Positions 27,572 to 35,249 of a DNA stretch of 64,000 bases are shown here, in pieces. The DNA is from Armatimonadota bacterium (GTDB taxonomy: Bacteria; Armatimonadota; UBA5829; DTJY01). Each line of letters starts with the position of its first letter. Position 1 is the first letter of the stretch. A program made the translations under genes and the position numbers. Where the stretch lies: the NCBI GenBank assembly GCA_029907255.1, contig JARYMF010000005.1, forward strand, positions 1-64,000, written 5' to 3'. Below the pieces are notes generated by a model that was not told the DNA's origin, ran no database searches, and saw only the letters and a program-made list of their open reading frames with translations.

Positions 27572-28693
27572 TCAAAAATCCTCTTCTCTAAACCTATAGC
27601 CTCGTATCTGCGCCTTTGGTGCATCATCAACTATGTAATTAACGGCAAAAAAGCAACCCTGCTCAATTTCGACCCAGCCGGTATAACCACCATCCGATTT
27701 TGGGCTTCGGTCATGATCAAGAGGCAAGATAACTCCAAACTGTTTTGACCTGTCAGTCTCCAGTGCGCTTTCAACCGACTCAAGGTAGGCGAAGGTATTT
27801 TTTGCCCATGCGCCTGCACCACCTGGTTGATGGCGATAGGTTATCATGACTTTTCCACTTTTTGTAAGATGAGCAACAGGACGATGGCCAGCCATCATCA
27901 AGGTTTCGAAAGGCCCTTCCCAAGTTTTGCCACCATCGTTTGAAATTGATTTATATATTGGCAGACCTTTGCCGCTGTTTTCCCGCATATAGCACACAAG
28001 CTCGCCAGTCGGAAGTTGGAGAATAGACGCTTCGCAGAAATTAAAGCCTTCTCTCGCCGCAATGGTGATAGGTTCGCTCCAGGTTTTGCCGCCGTCTATG
28101 CTTCGGCTCACGCACTGGAAGGTATTTCCCCGCCGAAACTGAGTTGCCAACAGCCAATCACCGTTCGCAAGCTCGATAACTTCATCGGGCATGATGCCAT
28201 GAACGCCAGTTTTATGTTCAGCAGACCAGGTTTCCCCATAGTCATTGCTGAAAAAGAACACTATATCCGAGCCTGCCCCACCCTTCTCATCATCAGCTGG
28301 CGGAGTTTTGAATACATCACAAATCAGCAGTATACGTCCATCCTTTAGCTGCTGAACCTTCGGGCAGTTATATTTCAGCAGAACGCCGTCCTTCTGGTGG
28401 CTCTCAGCCAAGATTTTTCGTTCTGAGAATGTCTTGCCATTGTCATCGCTTATCCGCACAACTAATCTGCAAAAATCTTTTGCAACATGGGAATCGCTCT
28501 CTCGATATGTAAGTATTATTCTTCCATTGTTGCATCTTGCTAAGCTTGGAAAACATTCGTATAGGGAATCATCCCGGCTGATGGTGAATTTTTCGATGGT
28601 GTATCCGACTCGTGGCTTTTCCATGGCAGCTCCTACATGAAAACTTAGCAATAGAAAGAAACAAATAATACCTGTAGAGCAACCCACATTCAT
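27572..28693 (-). CDS. secreted exo-alpha-sialidase/BNR-repeat protein
   Basis: 373 residues with a signal peptide (about 1-22). A six-bladed sialidase-like propeller is marked by repeated Asp boxes: SDDNGKTFSE, SNDYGETWSA, SIDGGKTWSE and SNDGGKTWEG. An arginine in IILTYRESD and acidic residues in between could form the carboxylate-binding site, but the family also holds lyases and hydrolases of other sugars. Exo-sialidase is the usual label; true sialic acid release is not assured. It begins six bases after the CBM9 gene ends, in the same operon as the heparinase-like gene. Confidence 0.8.
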   Translation of the reverse strand: MNVGCSTGIICFFLLLSFHVGAAMEKPRVGYTIEKFTISRDDSLYECFPSLARCNNGRIILTYRESDSHVAKDFCRLVVRISDDNGKTFSERKILAESHQKDGVLLKYNCPKVQQLKDGRILLICDVFKTPPADDEKGGAGSDIVFFFSNDYGETWSAEHKTGVHGIMPDEVIELANGDWLLATQFRRGNTFQCVSRSIDGGKTWSEPITIAAREGFNFCEASILQLPTGELVCYMRENSGKGLPIYKSISNDGGKTWEGPFETLMMAGHRPVAHLTKSGKVMITYRHQPGGAGAWAKNTFAYLESVESALETDRSKQFGVILPLDHDRSPKSDGGYTGWVEIEQGCFFAVNYIVDDAPKAQIRGYRFREEDF

Positions 28694-28699
28694 AGCGTT

Positions 28700-29455
28700 C
28701 TACTTGCAAAATACAAGCACGCCAAAGTTTTTCGGCTGATGAAACACGCCTGGTGAAAGGGACCACGAAAGGAATTGATCGTCTTCCTTAGCTGGCCCGG
28801 CACGCTCACAACGAAACATATTGGCTCTCCACGAATCGCCTATTTTTGGAGGGACATTAACTTTCCTGCCTTTAAAATCCAACCAAGGGATGGCCATTTC
28901 GGCAGTCCACTTCTCATCCTTGTCGTTTCGATTGTCGAGCGTTCCGTAAACCTTTACGCCAGTCTTCAACCCTTTGACATTATAGCGTGCAAGTGTAGCA
29001 GCTTTAGCTTGAAAACCAGCGCGCGTAATGTTTAAGTCAACGACCACATTGCGCGGGCTGATGTCTATCTCCCAGTAGTGCCGCCCACAACCTTCGGGAT
29101 CTATGAAAATCTCAGCTGCTTCTTCAGCATAAACGGGGTCATCGAACTTGGTATAATTGCTCCAAATATCATCGTCCCAGCAGATGAAGGCTACATAAAG
29201 ATATTTGTCATCCCATAGAAGCTTTGCTGTAGTTCGAGCCTCTTGAAGGTCTCCAGGCTGAAATACTTCTTTAAAGGGCGAAGTTTCGGGCGCATGGCCC
29301 CATTCTTCCTCGGTAAGGACACCGTCAATTGTTATTGGAGCCTTTGTCCTGTGGACTTCATAATACGACCACTGGGATGGGTCAACAATGGTCGGTTGGA
29401 CTTTGATTACTGTCTGACAAATAGCAACATAAGCCAGAAGAAGAAGCTTAGCCAA
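28700..29455 (-). CDS. secreted CBM9-like carbohydrate-binding protein
   Basis: 251 residues. A short hydrophobic N-terminus (1-14) is a probable signal or lipid anchor; the rest is a family 9-like carbohydrate-binding module: ITIDGVLTEEEWGHAP, YLYVAFICWDDDIWSNY and EIFIDPEGCGRHYWEIDISPRN. These proteins bind sugars or reducing ends of glycans and often stand as free proteins beside secreted hydrolases. Start TTG with GGAGG seven bases upstream. It is the first gene of the sialidase-heparinase-hydrolase run. Confidence 0.8.
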   Translation of the reverse strand: MAKLLLLAYVAICQTVIKVQPTIVDPSQWSYYEVHRTKAPITIDGVLTEEEWGHAPETSPFKEVFQPGDLQEARTTAKLLWDDKYLYVAFICWDDDIWSNYTKFDDPVYAEEAAEIFIDPEGCGRHYWEIDISPRNVVVDLNITRAGFQAKAATLARYNVKGLKTGVKVYGTLDNRNDKDEKWTAEMAIPWLDFKGRKVNVPPKIGDSWRANMFRCERAGPAKEDDQFLSWSLSPGVFHQPKNFGVLVFCK

Positions 29456-29486: not shown

Positions 29487-31979
29487 TTAAACTACTATAT
29501 TTACCAACTTCCCTGGAACAACAATAACCTTTCGCACAGGTTTATTATCTAGGAACGACTTGATTCTTTCGCTTTCTAAGGCAAGCCGCTCAAGCTCTGC
29601 GCGGTCGGTGTCCACGGGTACCTCAATTCTATCTCGGACTTTGCCGTTTATTTGAAGCACAATTGTAACTTGCTCAACCTTCGCAATCTCAGGGTCGAAC
29701 TCAGGCCAGCTCTGCTGGTATGTGGTGCCTGATTTCCCCAGGCGCTCCCAAAGCTCATCTGCCAGGTGAGGAGTAAATGGACTGAGAAGCAACACAAGGT
29801 TTTCCATAGCTTCAGACAAAACAGCAAAGCTGACAGCTGACGGGTTAGAGCCAATGGCATCCAAATAATCTGCCATCTCATTCACCATTTCCATTAGAGC
29901 ACTCACCGAAGTATTGAAGTGGAAACGCTCAATATCTTCGGTAACCTTGCGAATTGTTTGATGGGTTTTTCGACGCATATTCCGCTCAGGCACGCTCAGG
30001 TCTGCGCCTTTGAGCTTTTCCCTCCAAGACGAATCGAAGTTTGCGGAATTTGCGTTAAAGAGGCGCCAGACGCGATTTAGATACCTAAAAACCCCTTCGA
30101 TGCCCTGATCGCTCCATTCAGCGTCCTGGTCGGGAGGTCCGATAAATAAAATAAACATGCGCCCTGTATCCGCGCCATACTTGCTACAAATATAATCCGG
30201 GGAGACCACATTGCCACGAGATTTGCTCATCTTAAAGCCATCTTTATAAATCATGCCCTGGGTAAATAGGCGTGTAAATGGCTCAGAGAAATTAATCAAG
30301 CCAAGGTCCTTAATTACTTTTGTAAAGAACCTGGAGTAAAGTAAGTGGAGTACTGCATGCTCAACGCCACCGACATATTGGTCAACAGGCAGCCAAAAGT
30401 CAACTGCATCCTTGTCAAAAGGCATTTTTTCTTCATGCGGACTTGCGTATCTTAGGAAATACCAAGACGAGTCTATCCATGTCGCCATGGTATCAGTTTC
30501 GCGTCTTGCTTTTCCACCACATTTAGGACAATCCGTATACAAAAACGTGGCTGATGTTGTAAGTGGTGACTCACCTTTACCGGTAAACTTCACATCCGTT
30601 GGCAGGACAACGGGAAGCTTATCTTCGGGAACAGTCACCATACCACATTTCTCGCAATAAACAATTGGGATTGGCGTGCCCCAATAACGCTGGCGAGAAA
30701 TAAGCCAGTCGCGCAAGCGGTAGCTTATTTGCCGATGGCCTATATTATGTTCCTCCATATAATCTGCAATAGCCTTCTTGGCTTCTTCGCTTGGCATACC
30801 ATCGAATGGCCCCGAGTTGATTTGAATACCTGGTTCGATATAAGCTGCCACCATATGGTGAGGATCCTGGGGCGCTTGACCTGGAGGAACAATAACCTCT
30901 CGAATTTCCAAGCCATACTTCTTTGCAAACTCAAAATCACGTTCATCATGCGCTGGGACCCCCATGACCGCGCCTGTTCCGTATTCTAATAAAACGTAAT
31001 TCGCAATCCAGATTGGAACTTTCTCTCCATTCATTGGATTGATAGCGTTAGCCCCAATAAACATGCCAATCTTTTCCAGTGTAGTTGATAGGCGCTCTAT
31101 CTCACTCAACGTTCGCACTTTAGCCACAAAATCTTTAACAGGCTTTTCATACTCCGTGCCAGCAGTGAGTTTTGCTACTAGTGGGTGCTCGGGGGCAAGA
31201 ACCAGATATGTCACGCCATAAACAGTATCCTGACGTGTAGTGTAAACAGGAACATCGTCGCCAGTCTCTGCAACTTTGAATTTAATGACGACCCCTTCGC
31301 TGCGGCCAATCCAATTACGCTGCATTGTCCGCACACGCTCAGGCCATTCTTCTAACAAATCGATATCCTGCAGTAAGCGATCAGCGTATTCTGTGATTTT
31401 GAAGAACCACTGTTCCAAATCTTTTCGAACAGCAGTGCTGCCACAACGCCAACATACGCCGCCTTCGACTTCCTCATTCGCCAACACAGTCTGACATTCG
31501 GGGCACCAGTTCACTGGCGCAAGCTTCTTGTATGCCAAGCCTTTTTCTAGAAACTTTAGAAAGAACCATTGGTTCCACTTATAGTATTCTGGAAGGCATG
31601 TTATGACCTCGCGGTCCCAATCGAAGGAAATCCCAAGTTGGCCAAATTGCTCGCGCATCCTAGCAATGCAATCCATCGTCCATTTAGCTGGATGGATGCC
31701 GCGTTCAATAGCAGCGTTCTCAGCAGGCAGCCCAAAGGAATCAAAACCCATCGGGTGGAGGACATTATATCCTTGCATTACTTTGCAACGAGAAATAACA
31801 TCGCCTATGATATAGTTGCGCATGTGGCCCATGTGCAACTCGCCAGAAGGATATGGGAACATATCGAGGTAGTAATACTTTGGCTTTTCAGGGTCGTCCC
31901 GAGTTTTAAATAGTTGGGCTTTAGACCATCGTTCTTGCCACTTTTTCTCGATTGACTGAAAATCGTATTTCTCTGCCAT
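29487..31979 (-). CDS. leuS: leucyl-tRNA synthetase
   Basis: 830 residues. It charges tRNA-Leu. HIGH-like motif PYPSGELHMGHMRNY near 41-55, CP1 editing domain in the middle, zinc-type cysteines in CPECQ and CWRCG, and the KMSKS motif in FKMSKSRGNV. The C-terminal part is the anticodon-binding fold. The ATG at 31979 is preferred to upstream in-frame codons because it matches the family start MAEKYDF and has AAGGA before it. It follows the presenilin-like gene by 59 bases and may share its transcript. Confidence 0.97.
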   Translation of the reverse strand: MAEKYDFQSIEKKWQERWSKAQLFKTRDDPEKPKYYYLDMFPYPSGELHMGHMRNYIIGDVISRCKVMQGYNVLHPMGFDSFGLPAENAAIERGIHPAKWTMDCIARMREQFGQLGISFDWDREVITCLPEYYKWNQWFFLKFLEKGLAYKKLAPVNWCPECQTVLANEEVEGGVCWRCGSTAVRKDLEQWFFKITEYADRLLQDIDLLEEWPERVRTMQRNWIGRSEGVVIKFKVAETGDDVPVYTTRQDTVYGVTYLVLAPEHPLVAKLTAGTEYEKPVKDFVAKVRTLSEIERLSTTLEKIGMFIGANAINPMNGEKVPIWIANYVLLEYGTGAVMGVPAHDERDFEFAKKYGLEIREVIVPPGQAPQDPHHMVAAYIEPGIQINSGPFDGMPSEEAKKAIADYMEEHNIGHRQISYRLRDWLISRQRYWGTPIPIVYCEKCGMVTVPEDKLPVVLPTDVKFTGKGESPLTTSATFLYTDCPKCGGKARRETDTMATWIDSSWYFLRYASPHEEKMPFDKDAVDFWLPVDQYVGGVEHAVLHLLYSRFFTKVIKDLGLINFSEPFTRLFTQGMIYKDGFKMSKSRGNVVSPDYICSKYGADTGRMFILFIGPPDQDAEWSDQGIEGVFRYLNRVWRLFNANSANFDSSWREKLKGADLSVPERNMRRKTHQTIRKVTEDIERFHFNTSVSALMEMVNEMADYLDAIGSNPSAVSFAVLSEAMENLVLLLSPFTPHLADELWERLGKSGTTYQQSWPEFDPEIAKVEQVTIVLQINGKVRDRIEVPVDTDRAELERLALESERIKSFLDNKPVRKVIVVPGKLVNIVV

Positions 31980-32038
31980 CACCCTCATCCTTACAAGACC
32001 GGCAATTATCACCGGGGAAGTATGATTTAATAAATTTC

Positions 32039-32857
32039 CTATCTTCGCAGAAAGAAAAACCCTGCCACAACAAGAAACGCTAGGAGAATTGCTCCCGCAT
32101 AGATTATAGCAACAAGCTCATCGCGTTTGAGCCTAAAATATCTCAAATTCATGGCTATTACTGCAACCCCCATGGGAACTAAAGCAGGCAACGCAGTTCT
32201 ATAATATAGAACTAGCAGCATCGAAGCTGTCAAAAGCGCATAACCCAACCAAAAAGAGCCTTTTATGTTCATTTGAAAGCGATACAATACACTAAAGAAT
32301 AGGGCTAGAAATACAAAGTCGCCAATGCCTATCATAGTAATCGGTTGAGGATGTCCAATGGACGGCACCTGCACCGATGCGGCTGCCACCGTAGGCATTG
32401 CGTTGGTTAAAAGATGGCTCAAAGGCCCCCAAGTAACGCTCCAGTAATCCACCAGCGCAGCGAAAATGGCGGCGGGTAAAAGCAAGTTCGGTTCGCTAAT
32501 AATAAAGCTAACAAGGTAGCCTATGGAACCAGCCAAAAGCATCATAGAAAGCGACCGAGTTGCAAGTATGCAATCCACCAATAAGGGGTTTGTTATCTTC
32601 ACATTTAGCATAATATAGGTCAAGGCGATCGTCAAAGCAAAATTGGGAACTGCAACAAACAAAGCAGATATTGGCCTTAATTGCATCCGAGCGATTACTA
32701 GCATCAGAGCCAATTGCACTAGCATGAAGGCGCAAATTGAAATAAACGCCGCTACATCCGGCCGCAGCAGCTTAATCCGGAGCATAGGAAGGCCAATTCT
32801 CATAAACAGGTAGAGGGCCAATGCACCAATGCACCAGCCCACATGGTTAAGCCGCAT
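32039..32857 (-). CDS. presenilin/SPP-like GxGD intramembrane aspartyl protease candidate
   Basis: About 272 residues, almost all hydrophobic, with roughly nine membrane segments. Three features agree with the presenilin/signal-peptide-peptidase (A22) family: an aspartate inside a helix, D137 in AALVDYWSV; the motif GIGD at 177-180 at the start of the next helix; and PAL at 224-226 in TALPALVPMG. Families with this set cut transmembrane helices inside the membrane using the two aspartates. The sequence is short and divergent and lacks the classical YD tyrosine order (here DY), so the call rests on motifs. A GTG at 32869 is an alternative start. It is upstream of leuS. Confidence 0.55.
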   Translation of the reverse strand: MRLNHVGWCIGALALYLFMRIGLPMLRIKLLRPDVAAFISICAFMLVQLALMLVIARMQLRPISALFVAVPNFALTIALTYIMLNVKITNPLLVDCILATRSLSMMLLAGSIGYLVSFIISEPNLLLPAAIFAALVDYWSVTWGPLSHLLTNAMPTVAAASVQVPSIGHPQPITMIGIGDFVFLALFFSVLYRFQMNIKGSFWLGYALLTASMLLVLYYRTALPALVPMGVAVIAMNLRYFRLKRDELVAIIYAGAILLAFLVVAGFFFLRR

Positions 32858-32888
32858 ACTTTTATCCACTTATCTGCAAATAGGCACT

Positions 32889-32917
32889 TTGACAAAGATT
32901 ATACCATATAGTAGAAT
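32889..32917 (+). promoter_or_regulatory. promoter of the ANTAR/kinase operon
   Basis: TTGACA (32889-32894), 17-bp spacer, TAGAAT (32912-32917). A GGGGAGGAG Shine-Dalgarno follows before the GTG at 32951. Confidence 0.75.
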
Positions 32918-32927: not shown

Positions 32928-32950
32928 GTTGAAGCGGGGAGGAGTAATTG

Positions 32951-33529
32951 GTGCAGACACTTCGTATACTCATTGCTGACGACGAATCAATCATTCGGCT
33001 AGATTTAAGAAAGATACTCGAAAAAATGGGCCACCAGGTTGTAGCAGAGGCAGGCGACGGCGAAAAAGCTGTGGAACTTGCTCGGTTGCTCAAACCTGAT
33101 CTTGCCATTCTCGACATCAAGATGCCAAAGATGGATGGACTTGATGCGGCAAAGATAATCTCGGAGGAAAAGATTGCGCCTACCATACTCTTGACCGCAT
33201 ACAGCCAGCAGGACCTCATAGAAAGAGCCAAGAAAGCTGGGGTTTTTGGCTATCTAGTCAAGCCCTTCAAAGAAGCTGACCTTCTGCCTGCTATTGAGGT
33301 AGCAATCTCCCGCTATCAAGAAAAGGAGGCTCTTGAAAAAAATGTTGGCGACCTCCAAGAGAAACTAGAAATCCGCAAGCTAATCGAGCGTGCAAAGGGA
33401 ATACTCATGGAGAAACGCGGCATGAAAGAACAAGAAGCTTTCCGCTGGATTCAAACACAAAGCATGAATACTCGAAAAACAATGAAGGAGATTGCAGAAG
33501 CGATCATCCTGACGCAAGATATGGGATAG
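32951..33529 (+). CDS. ANTAR-domain response regulator (PdtaR/EutV-like)
   Basis: 192 residues. The receiver domain (1-120) has D10/D11, phospho-acceptor D55 in LAILDIKMPKMDG and a lysine in VKPFKE. A helical linker leads to the ANTAR RNA-binding domain (about 135-190): KLIERAKGILMEKRGMKEQEAFRWIQ. Phosphorylated ANTAR proteins bind paired hairpins in leader RNAs and prevent termination. GTG at 32951 is preferred over TTG at 32948 because GGAGGAG is six bases from it. The kinase gene begins one base after its stop, so the two are a cognate pair. Confidence 0.93.
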   Translation: MQTLRILIADDESIIRLDLRKILEKMGHQVVAEAGDGEKAVELARLLKPDLAILDIKMPKMDGLDAAKIISEEKIAPTILLTAYSQQDLIERAKKAGVFGYLVKPFKEADLLPAIEVAISRYQEKEALEKNVGDLQEKLEIRKLIERAKGILMEKRGMKEQEAFRWIQTQSMNTRKTMKEIAEAIILTQDMG

Positions 33530-33530
33530 A

Positions 33531-35249
33531 TTGGGTAGCCAATTTCGCTTGCTTCCCATGCTCCCAATGCCTAAAACTCCCATGAACCAACTTATAGAGA
33601 AATATAGCAAACTTGAGGCAGAGAACAAACATCTTCGAGAAATGCTGGCAGAGCGCGATATCGAAATCGAAGCTCTCAGGCGGCTTGGGCAGGCAATCGG
33701 CTCGACATTCGATACCCAGCATTTGCTTGATGTGGTTGCCGACATAGCTGTCCAAGTCACAAAGACCGATACTTGCTTCATCTACCTCCTTGATGACGAA
33801 AGCGAAGAGCTTGTTCTTAGAGCAGCCAAAGGTGCTGATAGAGAATTGCTCGGCAAGATAAGAATGAAGGTTGGCGAAGGAGTCACGGGTTGGGTAGCAC
33901 AAGAACGAAAACACGTAGCGCTTGACAGAGACGCATTTAGGGATCGCCGTTACAAAGCCTTCGCCGGGCTAAAAGAAGACCGCTTTCATTCCATGCTGTC
34001 TGTTCCTCTAATAGCAGGCGAGCAACTTGTTGGCGTTATTAATATTCGCACGAATCCGCCCCACAAATACACTGAAAGCCAGATACGCTTGATGGAACGC
34101 ATAGCTGAACAAGTAGCGAATGCCGTTCAAAGTTCGCGCCTCTACAGAAACATGGAGACTCAAGTGTCGCGCCTTTCAACCTTATCCGAAGTCAGCCGCT
34201 CAATGACTTCCGGCATGTATCTCGACGAAATACTTGGTCTTATTGTTAACATGACTGCCGAAACGATGAATTTTAAAATCGTGACCGTCATGCTTGTAGA
34301 TGAGGAAAAGCAAGAGCTTGTAATCCGTGCCACACAGAGCACCAGCCGAGAATATATATTCAAGCCAAACCTCAAGCTTGGGGAGAGCCTAGCAGGCAAA
34401 GCAATTCAAGAAGGCAGGCCAATTACTGTTCTCGACGTCAAGAGCACTCCTGAATACCGATATCCTGATATTGCCCGAAAGGAAGGGCTCTGCTCAATGA
34501 TTTCTGTTCCGCTGCGCGTCCGCGAAAAGATAATTGGGGTGCTCAATTGTTACACAGACAAACCACATGTCTTCACGAATGGCGAGATTGGAATTCTCAC
34601 AGCGCTTGCTAGCCATGCGGCTCTTGCCATTGATAACGCAAAGCTTGTCGTCAAGTCAGCAATCATCCAGGAAATGCACCATAGGGTTAAAAACAACCTG
34701 CAGACAATAGCTAGCCTCCTACGTTTACAAATGCACTATGCAAAAAGTAATTCTGTCGAAACCGTGCTACAAGAAAGCATTAACCGTATCCTCAGCATAG
34801 CTTCCGTCCATGAAGTTCTTTCTCAAGAAGAAATGGATAACGTCAACATTAAGAAGGTTGCAGAAAATATCTTAGCTGCAACCTCCCAAAGTCTCCTATC
34901 GTCCGAAAAACAAGTTGAAACGTCATTAAGTGGTCCGGATATCCTACTTCCTCCGGCAAAAGCCACCTCAGTGGCTCTCATCTTAAACGAACTCATTCAA
35001 AATGCGTTCAAGCATGGATTTAAGACTCTTGATAAAGGGAACGTTGCCGTAAAGTTTTCAGAGGATGAACGTGAAATTGAGATTGCAGTAATAAATGACG
35101 GCACGCCGCTACCAAAAGGATTCGACCTCCGCCAGAACCGCAACTTGGGGCTTCAAATCGTAGAAAGCCTTGTCCGCGATGACCTCCATGGCCGCTTCTC
35201 ACTAAAAAGCAACAGAAGGATTACGGCAACGGTTGTGTTTCCGAAATAA
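33531..35249 (+). CDS. GAF-GAF-HisKA_2 sensor histidine kinase (PdtaS-like)
   Basis: 572 residues, no membrane segment. A short coiled coil (18-50) leads to two GAF domains (about 55-205 and 215-370). The HisKA_2 dimerisation helix has the phospho-acceptor region EMHHRVKNNLQTIASLLRL (H384), and the HATPase domain has the N box LNELIQNAFKHGF and LGLQIVESLV. It should phosphorylate the ANTAR regulator next to it, as PdtaS/PdtaR and EutW/EutV do; the GAF ligands are unknown. The start is uncertain (TTG at 33531 one base after the upstream stop, or ATG at 33558/33582). Its 3' end overlaps folP by 29 bases tail to tail. Confidence 0.9.
   Translation: MGSQFRLLPMLPMPKTPMNQLIEKYSKLEAENKHLREMLAERDIEIEALRRLGQAIGSTFDTQHLLDVVADIAVQVTKTDTCFIYLLDDESEELVLRAAKGADRELLGKIRMKVGEGVTGWVAQERKHVALDRDAFRDRRYKAFAGLKEDRFHSMLSVPLIAGEQLVGVINIRTNPPHKYTESQIRLMERIAEQVANAVQSSRLYRNMETQVSRLSTLSEVSRSMTSGMYLDEILGLIVNMTAETMNFKIVTVMLVDEEKQELVIRATQSTSREYIFKPNLKLGESLAGKAIQEGRPITVLDVKSTPEYRYPDIARKEGLCSMISVPLRVREKIIGVLNCYTDKPHVFTNGEIGILTALASHAALAIDNAKLVVKSAIIQEMHHRVKNNLQTIASLLRLQMHYAKSNSVETVLQESINRILSIASVHEVLSQEEMDNVNIKKVAENILAATSQSLLSSEKQVETSLSGPDILLPPAKATSVALILNELIQNAFKHGFKTLDKGNVAVKFSEDEREIEIAVINDGTPLPKGFDLRQNRNLGLQIVESLVRDDLHGRFSLKSNRRITATVVFPK

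Follow-up and report, generated by a model that had tools for sequence, protein, structure and literature searches.

The stretch of Armatimonadota DNA analysed here (the window, 64,000 nucleotides) carries on its minus strand, at 32039-32857 (start codon ATG at 32857, last base of the stop codon at 32039), a gene for a protein of 272 residues that is a candidate presenilin-fold intramembrane aspartyl protease. Presenilin, an enzyme linked to Alzheimer's disease, cleaves proteins within the membrane, and enzymes of this type have been studied as eukaryotic and archaeal proteins. An alternative in-frame GTG start at 32869 would give a product of 276 residues, and the source genome (G000) has one copy of the gene. 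An initial annotation, made from sequence alone, had singled out this reading frame and three elements within it, and all of them are found at the positions it gave. D137, the first putative catalytic aspartate (codon at 32447-32449, minus strand), lies in helix 123-142, the equivalent of presenilin TM6, and is invariant in 48 of 48 sequences; GIGD at residues 177-180 (32318-32329, minus strand), which aligns to GLGD385 of presenilin-1 (PS1), contains the putative second catalytic aspartate, D180, and starts helix 178-193, the equivalent of TM7; and PAL at residues 224-226 (32180-32188, minus strand), with an invariant P224, forms the start of the TM9-equivalent helix. The claim that the order and spacing of these motifs are those of GxGD aspartyl proteases held as well, this being the sole match to D...GxGD...PAL at presenilin-like spacing among the 346 stop-to-stop frames of the window of at least 60 residues. 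The pattern is not a product of chance, because it is conserved: five residues are fully invariant in 48 homologues, as set out below.

As also annotated initially, the gene stands upstream of leuS (leucyl-tRNA synthetase by Pfam, 29487-32012, minus strand), which follows directly downstream on the same strand and is likely to be co-transcribed with it; the same arrangement recurs in several lineages (L031, L038, L040, L042 and L057). After leuS, still on the same strand, come genes for a BNR-repeat protein and a CBM9-like protein (27572-29455). Divergently oriented on the plus strand are genes assigned by Pfam to an ANTAR response regulator (Response_reg plus ANTAR, 32948-33529), which the protease gene faces divergently at most loci of the window's class, and to a histidine kinase (two GAF domains, HisKA_2/HWE and HATPase, 33531-35249). 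The promoter of this response-regulator operon, TTGACA-17-TAGAAT (32889-32917, plus strand), matches the consensus at 11 of 12 positions, and within its -35/-10 spacer, on the opposite strand, lies the extended -10 motif of the protease gene, TGGTATAAT (32898-32906, minus strand). The word CTTTGACAAAG, within 32889-32917, is palindromic around its central base.

This nested layout, TGnTATAAT within the spacer of TTGACA-17/18-TAnAAT, is present in 18 of 30 loci (L001-L030), down to about 30% protein identity; the search required the words TGnTATAAT and TGTCAA, and the operon -10, scored afterwards, has 5 of 6 bases in all. The overlap of promoters claimed at the outset is thus confirmed as sequence motifs and as a conserved layout, while the further suggestion that expression is tied to the two-component system remains an inference. 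Because two polymerases could hardly use both promoters simultaneously, we infer that the two are mutually exclusive, and transcription of the protease gene and of the ANTAR operon would in that case exclude or tune each other. The two-component operon adjoins the protease gene only in the window's class, other classes having other neighbours. In Fimbriimonadia-type loci (L046:2355-4738 and L055:1905-4068), for example, a queA-like gene, a gene of unknown function and a glycosyltransferase-like gene precede the protease gene, the last two of these four overlapping by a few bases. Since neither leuS nor the operon is constant across classes, the neighbours reveal no substrate.

The gene belongs to a family that is nearly universal in the phylum. 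A first genome search found a homologue in 37 of 41 genomes, and a profile search found a relative, mostly in one copy, in 269 of 291 Armatimonadota genomes (186 of the 194 of good quality). A nucleotide-pattern scan of genome contigs returned 38 loci when the alignment was used and no match when a single protein was the query. One divergent member is labelled Abditibacteriaceae (L058). The profile search detected no copy in three near-complete genomes from a single genus (g30: G040, G237 and G238) or in two genomes of 1.5 Mb (g99: G167 and G168); these well-covered lineages without the gene would be useful natural controls. A spread beyond the phylum, suggested by labels of Methanoregulaceae (L060), Actinomycetota (L042) and Bacillota (L048), is not borne out. 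These are probably mislabelled or misbinned genomes, since all three sequences group inside Armatimonadota clades, L060 and L042 have gene neighbours in common with them, and the genome of L060, titled a Methanoregulaceae archaeon, has no PF06550. As for unusual arrangements, one genome has two tandem neighbouring copies (G059:C1:5630809-5632593), nearly all others having one, and two loci (L067:4853-7705 and L068:5239-8373) encode long variants of 950 and 1044 residues, with a CarboxypepD_reg-like domain (below the Pfam cut-off) N-terminal to the presenilin-like domain and more than 500 residues without assignment C-terminal to it.

Conservation within the family is concentrated on the motifs. 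Thirty sequences share G113, P128, D137, G177, D180, F183, P224, N237 and E247; across 48 more divergent homologues (20-96% identity) only D137, G177, D180, F183 and P224 remain invariant, residues that correspond to the catalytic aspartate pair, the GxGDxxF motif and the PAL motif of presenilin. At position 179, 27 of the 48 have Gly and the other 21 have Ala, so that the motif reads either GxGD or GxAD, the latter as GPAD. The switch between them needs two steps on the tree, a single step not being excluded. In PS1, G384A is the only substitution at that position reported to leave the enzyme active (PMC3316526), and the GxAD of this family is equivalent to that active human mutation. The third motif also varies, reading PAL in 31 sequences, PLL in 8 and PGL in 7 (n = 48).

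By sequence, the family is all but invisible to existing libraries. Even at E up to 10, the window protein alone matches no Pfam, NCBIfam or PDB entry, and no Pfam or NCBIfam family matches the family at its cut-off. The profile searches proposed in the initial annotation were run, and none of PF01080, PF04258 and PF06550 matches the window protein at the curated cut-off; the best PF01080 E-values among homologues are 0.052-0.22, and PF06550 has matches in none of 201 genomes of the phylum. The protein is therefore not a recognisable member of PF01080 or PF06550. A PF01080 search of the source genome also gave no match, but its control was likewise without signal, so that this result is uninformative. 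Such a lack of library matches is not unusual for the superfamily, given that human PS1 itself, as a phmmer query against the PDB, fails to find the chains of SPPL2a and PSH.

What sequence link there is comes from pooled alignments. Searched against all PDB sequences, the whole-family profile has a single match below E = 10, the C-terminal fragment of PS1 (2KR6), with an alignment spanning GxGDF...PAL and E-values of 0.02 and 0.015. The profile of the Fimbriimonadia-type subfamily alone matches nothing in the PDB, so the link rests on the whole-family profile, and the similarity to PS1 must be called marginal. An HMM-HMM comparison with single-sequence PS1 gave a probability of only 25%, over residues 156-227. 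We also scored short conserved blocks against PS1 (a sequence identical to that in PDB 5A63), with p-values taken from local shuffles. For the TM6 core block (ALFDVWLVFVPEGPVGQ), taken from the Fimbriimonadia-type subfamily, the best PS1 position is SVYDLVAVLCPKGPLRM, the D257 site (p = 0.006), and the whole-family TM7 block has its best position at the D385 site (p = 0.011). These are the two best of seven blocks tried, uncorrected for that choice; the PAL block alone is not significant and does not single out PS1, and the A2 TM6 block (rank 48) and the A3 TM7 block (rank 2) fail to do so as well.

An AlphaFold2 model of the window protein, built from a 30-sequence alignment, has a mean pLDDT of 93.3 and a pTM of 0.89, and when it is compared with the PDB by VIA-align the first 24 entries are all presenilin-1, presenilin-2, SPPL2a or PSH, with Z from 14.7 to 9.2, the first unrelated entry following at 6.8. 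Foldseek likewise ranks presenilin, SPPL2a and PSH first for this model, though weakly (best E 0.039). A second model (pLDDT 78.1), built for a distant subfamily from 14 GPAD sequences of the Fimbriimonadia type, finds presenilin or SPPL2a in its top 14 entries among solved structures (Z 12.9-9.0), with the first unrelated entry at 7.0. Both models match presenilin-1 slightly better than SPPL2a or PSH. The caution due to helical bundles applies here, and in both models the A22 rows stand clearly apart from the others; AlphaFold2 predictions may also draw on training with presenilin structures. The lower-ranked matches include transporters and HGSNAT, at Z of about 7 or less. A better match to a transporter family, which the initial annotation had named as an outcome that would refute it, was thus looked for and not found, since unrelated membrane proteins, transporters included, score clearly lower (at most 6.8 and 7.0).

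The models also indicate how the protein departs from presenilin. Of the nine main helices in the prediction, the fifth and sixth carry the catalytic pair, where A22 enzymes have it in the sixth and seventh of nine, and an additional helix follows PAL. The structural match begins at residues 33-39, opposite the start of presenilin TM1, and the matched part has three helices, not five, before the first catalytic helix, so that two of presenilin TM2-TM5 are apparently missing; from the models and the fold match we infer one extra helix before TM1 and another after TM9. Between the two catalytic helices the window model places short helices (145-159) followed, before TM7, by a β hairpin (161-166/169-177, from DSSP of the model; 32327-32377, minus strand), and the second model has the same elements. 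A TM6a helix and a hybrid sheet have been described for substrate-bound γ-secretase (PMC7248309, PMC9282858), and the predicted short helices and hairpin are the counterpart of TM6a and β1/β2 in substrate-bound presenilin.

Among characterized proteins, presenilin-1 and -2 (MEROPS A22A, PF01080), the catalytic subunit of γ-secretase, are structurally closest, sharing the overall TM1-TM9 fold (Z 14.7; 3.1 Å over 193 residues), the GxGDF and PAL motifs and, ahead of TM7, a hairpin and a short helix resembling TM6a. In members of the Fimbriimonadia type, DVWLVFVPEGPV after the first aspartate follows PS1 DLVAVLCPKGPL without a gap. On the other hand, the window protein has 272 residues against 467, lacks the long cytosolic loop bearing the autocleavage site, has unmatched extra helices at both its N- and C-termini as well as an apparently reduced TM2-TM5 region, has no Tyr before its first aspartate and is predicted to be oppositely oriented. 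The presenilin partners nicastrin, APH-1 and PEN-2 are not expected in bacteria. With signal peptide peptidase (SPP) and the SPPL proteases (A22B, PF04258) the family shares the fold (SPPL2a, Z 13.3), the catalytic pair, PAL and the predicted orientation, but it is bacterial, undetectable by sequence and without a protease-associated domain. The archaeal presenilin homologue PSH/MCMJR1 (PF06550; PMC2947513) is, like it, a stand-alone prokaryotic enzyme with the same motifs and a similar fold (Z up to 11.4), yet it scores lower structurally than presenilin, its profile is absent from the 201 genomes of the phylum, and GxAD variants, which distinguish the present family from PSH, make up nearly half of the members sampled. 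Several features of A22 are present, namely an aspartate pair in adjacent membrane helices, GxGD, a C-terminal PAL and a presenilin fold (in two predicted models); the YD motif at the first aspartate is absent, being VD in the window protein and VD, ID, FD, AD, LD or TD across the family. Because of this absence, we file the proteins as a separate new family with a presenilin fold and do not place them in a named A22 subfamily.

SPP and presenilin have opposite orientations in the membrane, the TM6-TM7 loop of SPP lying on the non-cytoplasmic side. In 46 of 48 sequences of the family, Lys and Arg are richer in the TM5-6, TM7-8 and post-TM9 loops, a bias that, by the positive-inside rule, places the TM6-TM7 loop outside the cytoplasm, as in SPP and not as in presenilin. 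The remnant signal peptides cleaved by SPP have an N-in topology (PMC13252537), and an SPP-like orientation, itself inferred, would make N-in helices the probable substrates, among them leftover signal peptides and proteins held by a signal anchor. We would nonetheless lean slightly against a signal-peptide role as such. Of 101 genomes tested, all have M50 site-2 proteases and 61 have S49 (SppA-type) matches; the cells therefore have other enzymes for such proteolysis, and the idea of the protease gene as a simple replacement for them is not supported.

Taken together, the gene likely encodes a presenilin-fold intramembrane aspartyl protease of a new bacterial family, and the initial reading of a presenilin/SPP-like intramembrane protease is supported as to the kind of protein. 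Its motifs, their invariance, the match of its predicted fold to solved presenilins and its near-universal presence in Armatimonadota are established here, as are the nested divergent promoters; activity and the Asp-Asp distance are unmeasured, and proteolysis is inferred. In the proposed mechanism, D137 (TM6 equivalent) and D180 (TM7 equivalent, in GIGD) would form the catalytic pair, the PAL loop (P224) and the TM6-TM7 hairpin would shape the substrate site, and the protein would cleave transmembrane helices.

One might instead suppose a presenilin-like orientation, in which the enzyme cuts N-out (type I) proteins and frees cytoplasmic fragments, with the ANTAR system controlling or reading out the signalling. 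The slightly better fold matches to presenilin-1 than to SPPL2a or PSH, and the conserved promoter overlap with the ANTAR operon, speak for this; against it, the charge bias runs the other way in 46 of 48 sequences, and only in the window's class does the operon adjoin the gene, which occurs throughout the phylum and has other neighbours elsewhere. We regard this reading as unlikely. Less likely still, and to our minds very improbable, is a presenilin-fold protein that is not a protease, one engaged, for example, in lipid or ion handling, with the two aspartates serving in, for instance, proton or metal transfer. The 21 of 48 members with GxAD rather than GxGD, and the transporters and HGSNAT among the lower-ranked fold matches, could be cited in its favor. 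However, both aspartates, F183 and P224 never change in a protein that is otherwise mostly variable, GxAD is the one substitution tolerated in PS1 (PMC3316526), and the transporter matches fall well below those to A22.

That the protein is a GxGD enzyme like the type IV prepilin peptidases (A24, PF01478) can be all but ruled out. A24 enzymes are also membrane proteins with two aspartates and a GxGD motif, but neither Peptidase_A24 nor any other Pfam family matches the window protein at E up to 10, and the PAL motif and helix order follow presenilin. No A24 chain of the FlaK/PilD type appears among the listed fold matches, an absence that by itself excludes nothing.

Presenilin-type enzymes are not wholly without precedent in bacteria. 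Raut, Glass and Lieberman (2021, Proteins 89:232, cited in PMC9263693) reportedly found presenilin/SPP-type enzymes in bacteria of the Candidate Phyla Radiation (CPR), where they are reported to be scattered and possibly transferred from DPANN archaea. In contrast, the Armatimonadota family is near-universal within a single phylum and has diverged too far for the known profiles to recognise it, although no direct comparison with the CPR enzymes has been made. In the literature searched we found no paper joining Armatimonadota with an intramembrane protease or presenilin, and no phylum-wide, divergent bacterial family of presenilin-type enzymes.

Because a near-universal Armatimonadota protein combines a predicted presenilin fold with the active-site residues, an overlooked bacterial branch of presenilin-type machinery is probable. 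A bolder reading, which we hold only as a possibility, is that this is an ancestral, phylum-wide presenilin/SPP branch with a reduced N-terminal half and an SPP-like orientation, acting as a signal-peptide peptidase, in which GxGD became GxAD once or twice, a naturally occurring parallel to the Alzheimer mutation G384A. Natural GxAD enzymes would allow the effect of that mutation to be examined where selection has favoured a working protein, and the family would supply small stand-alone enzymes for structural and mechanistic study. A family conserved throughout a bacterial phylum, mostly in one copy per genome, would also bear on the origin of the presenilin fold, and an unannotated, near-core gene of the Armatimonadota gains a testable function.
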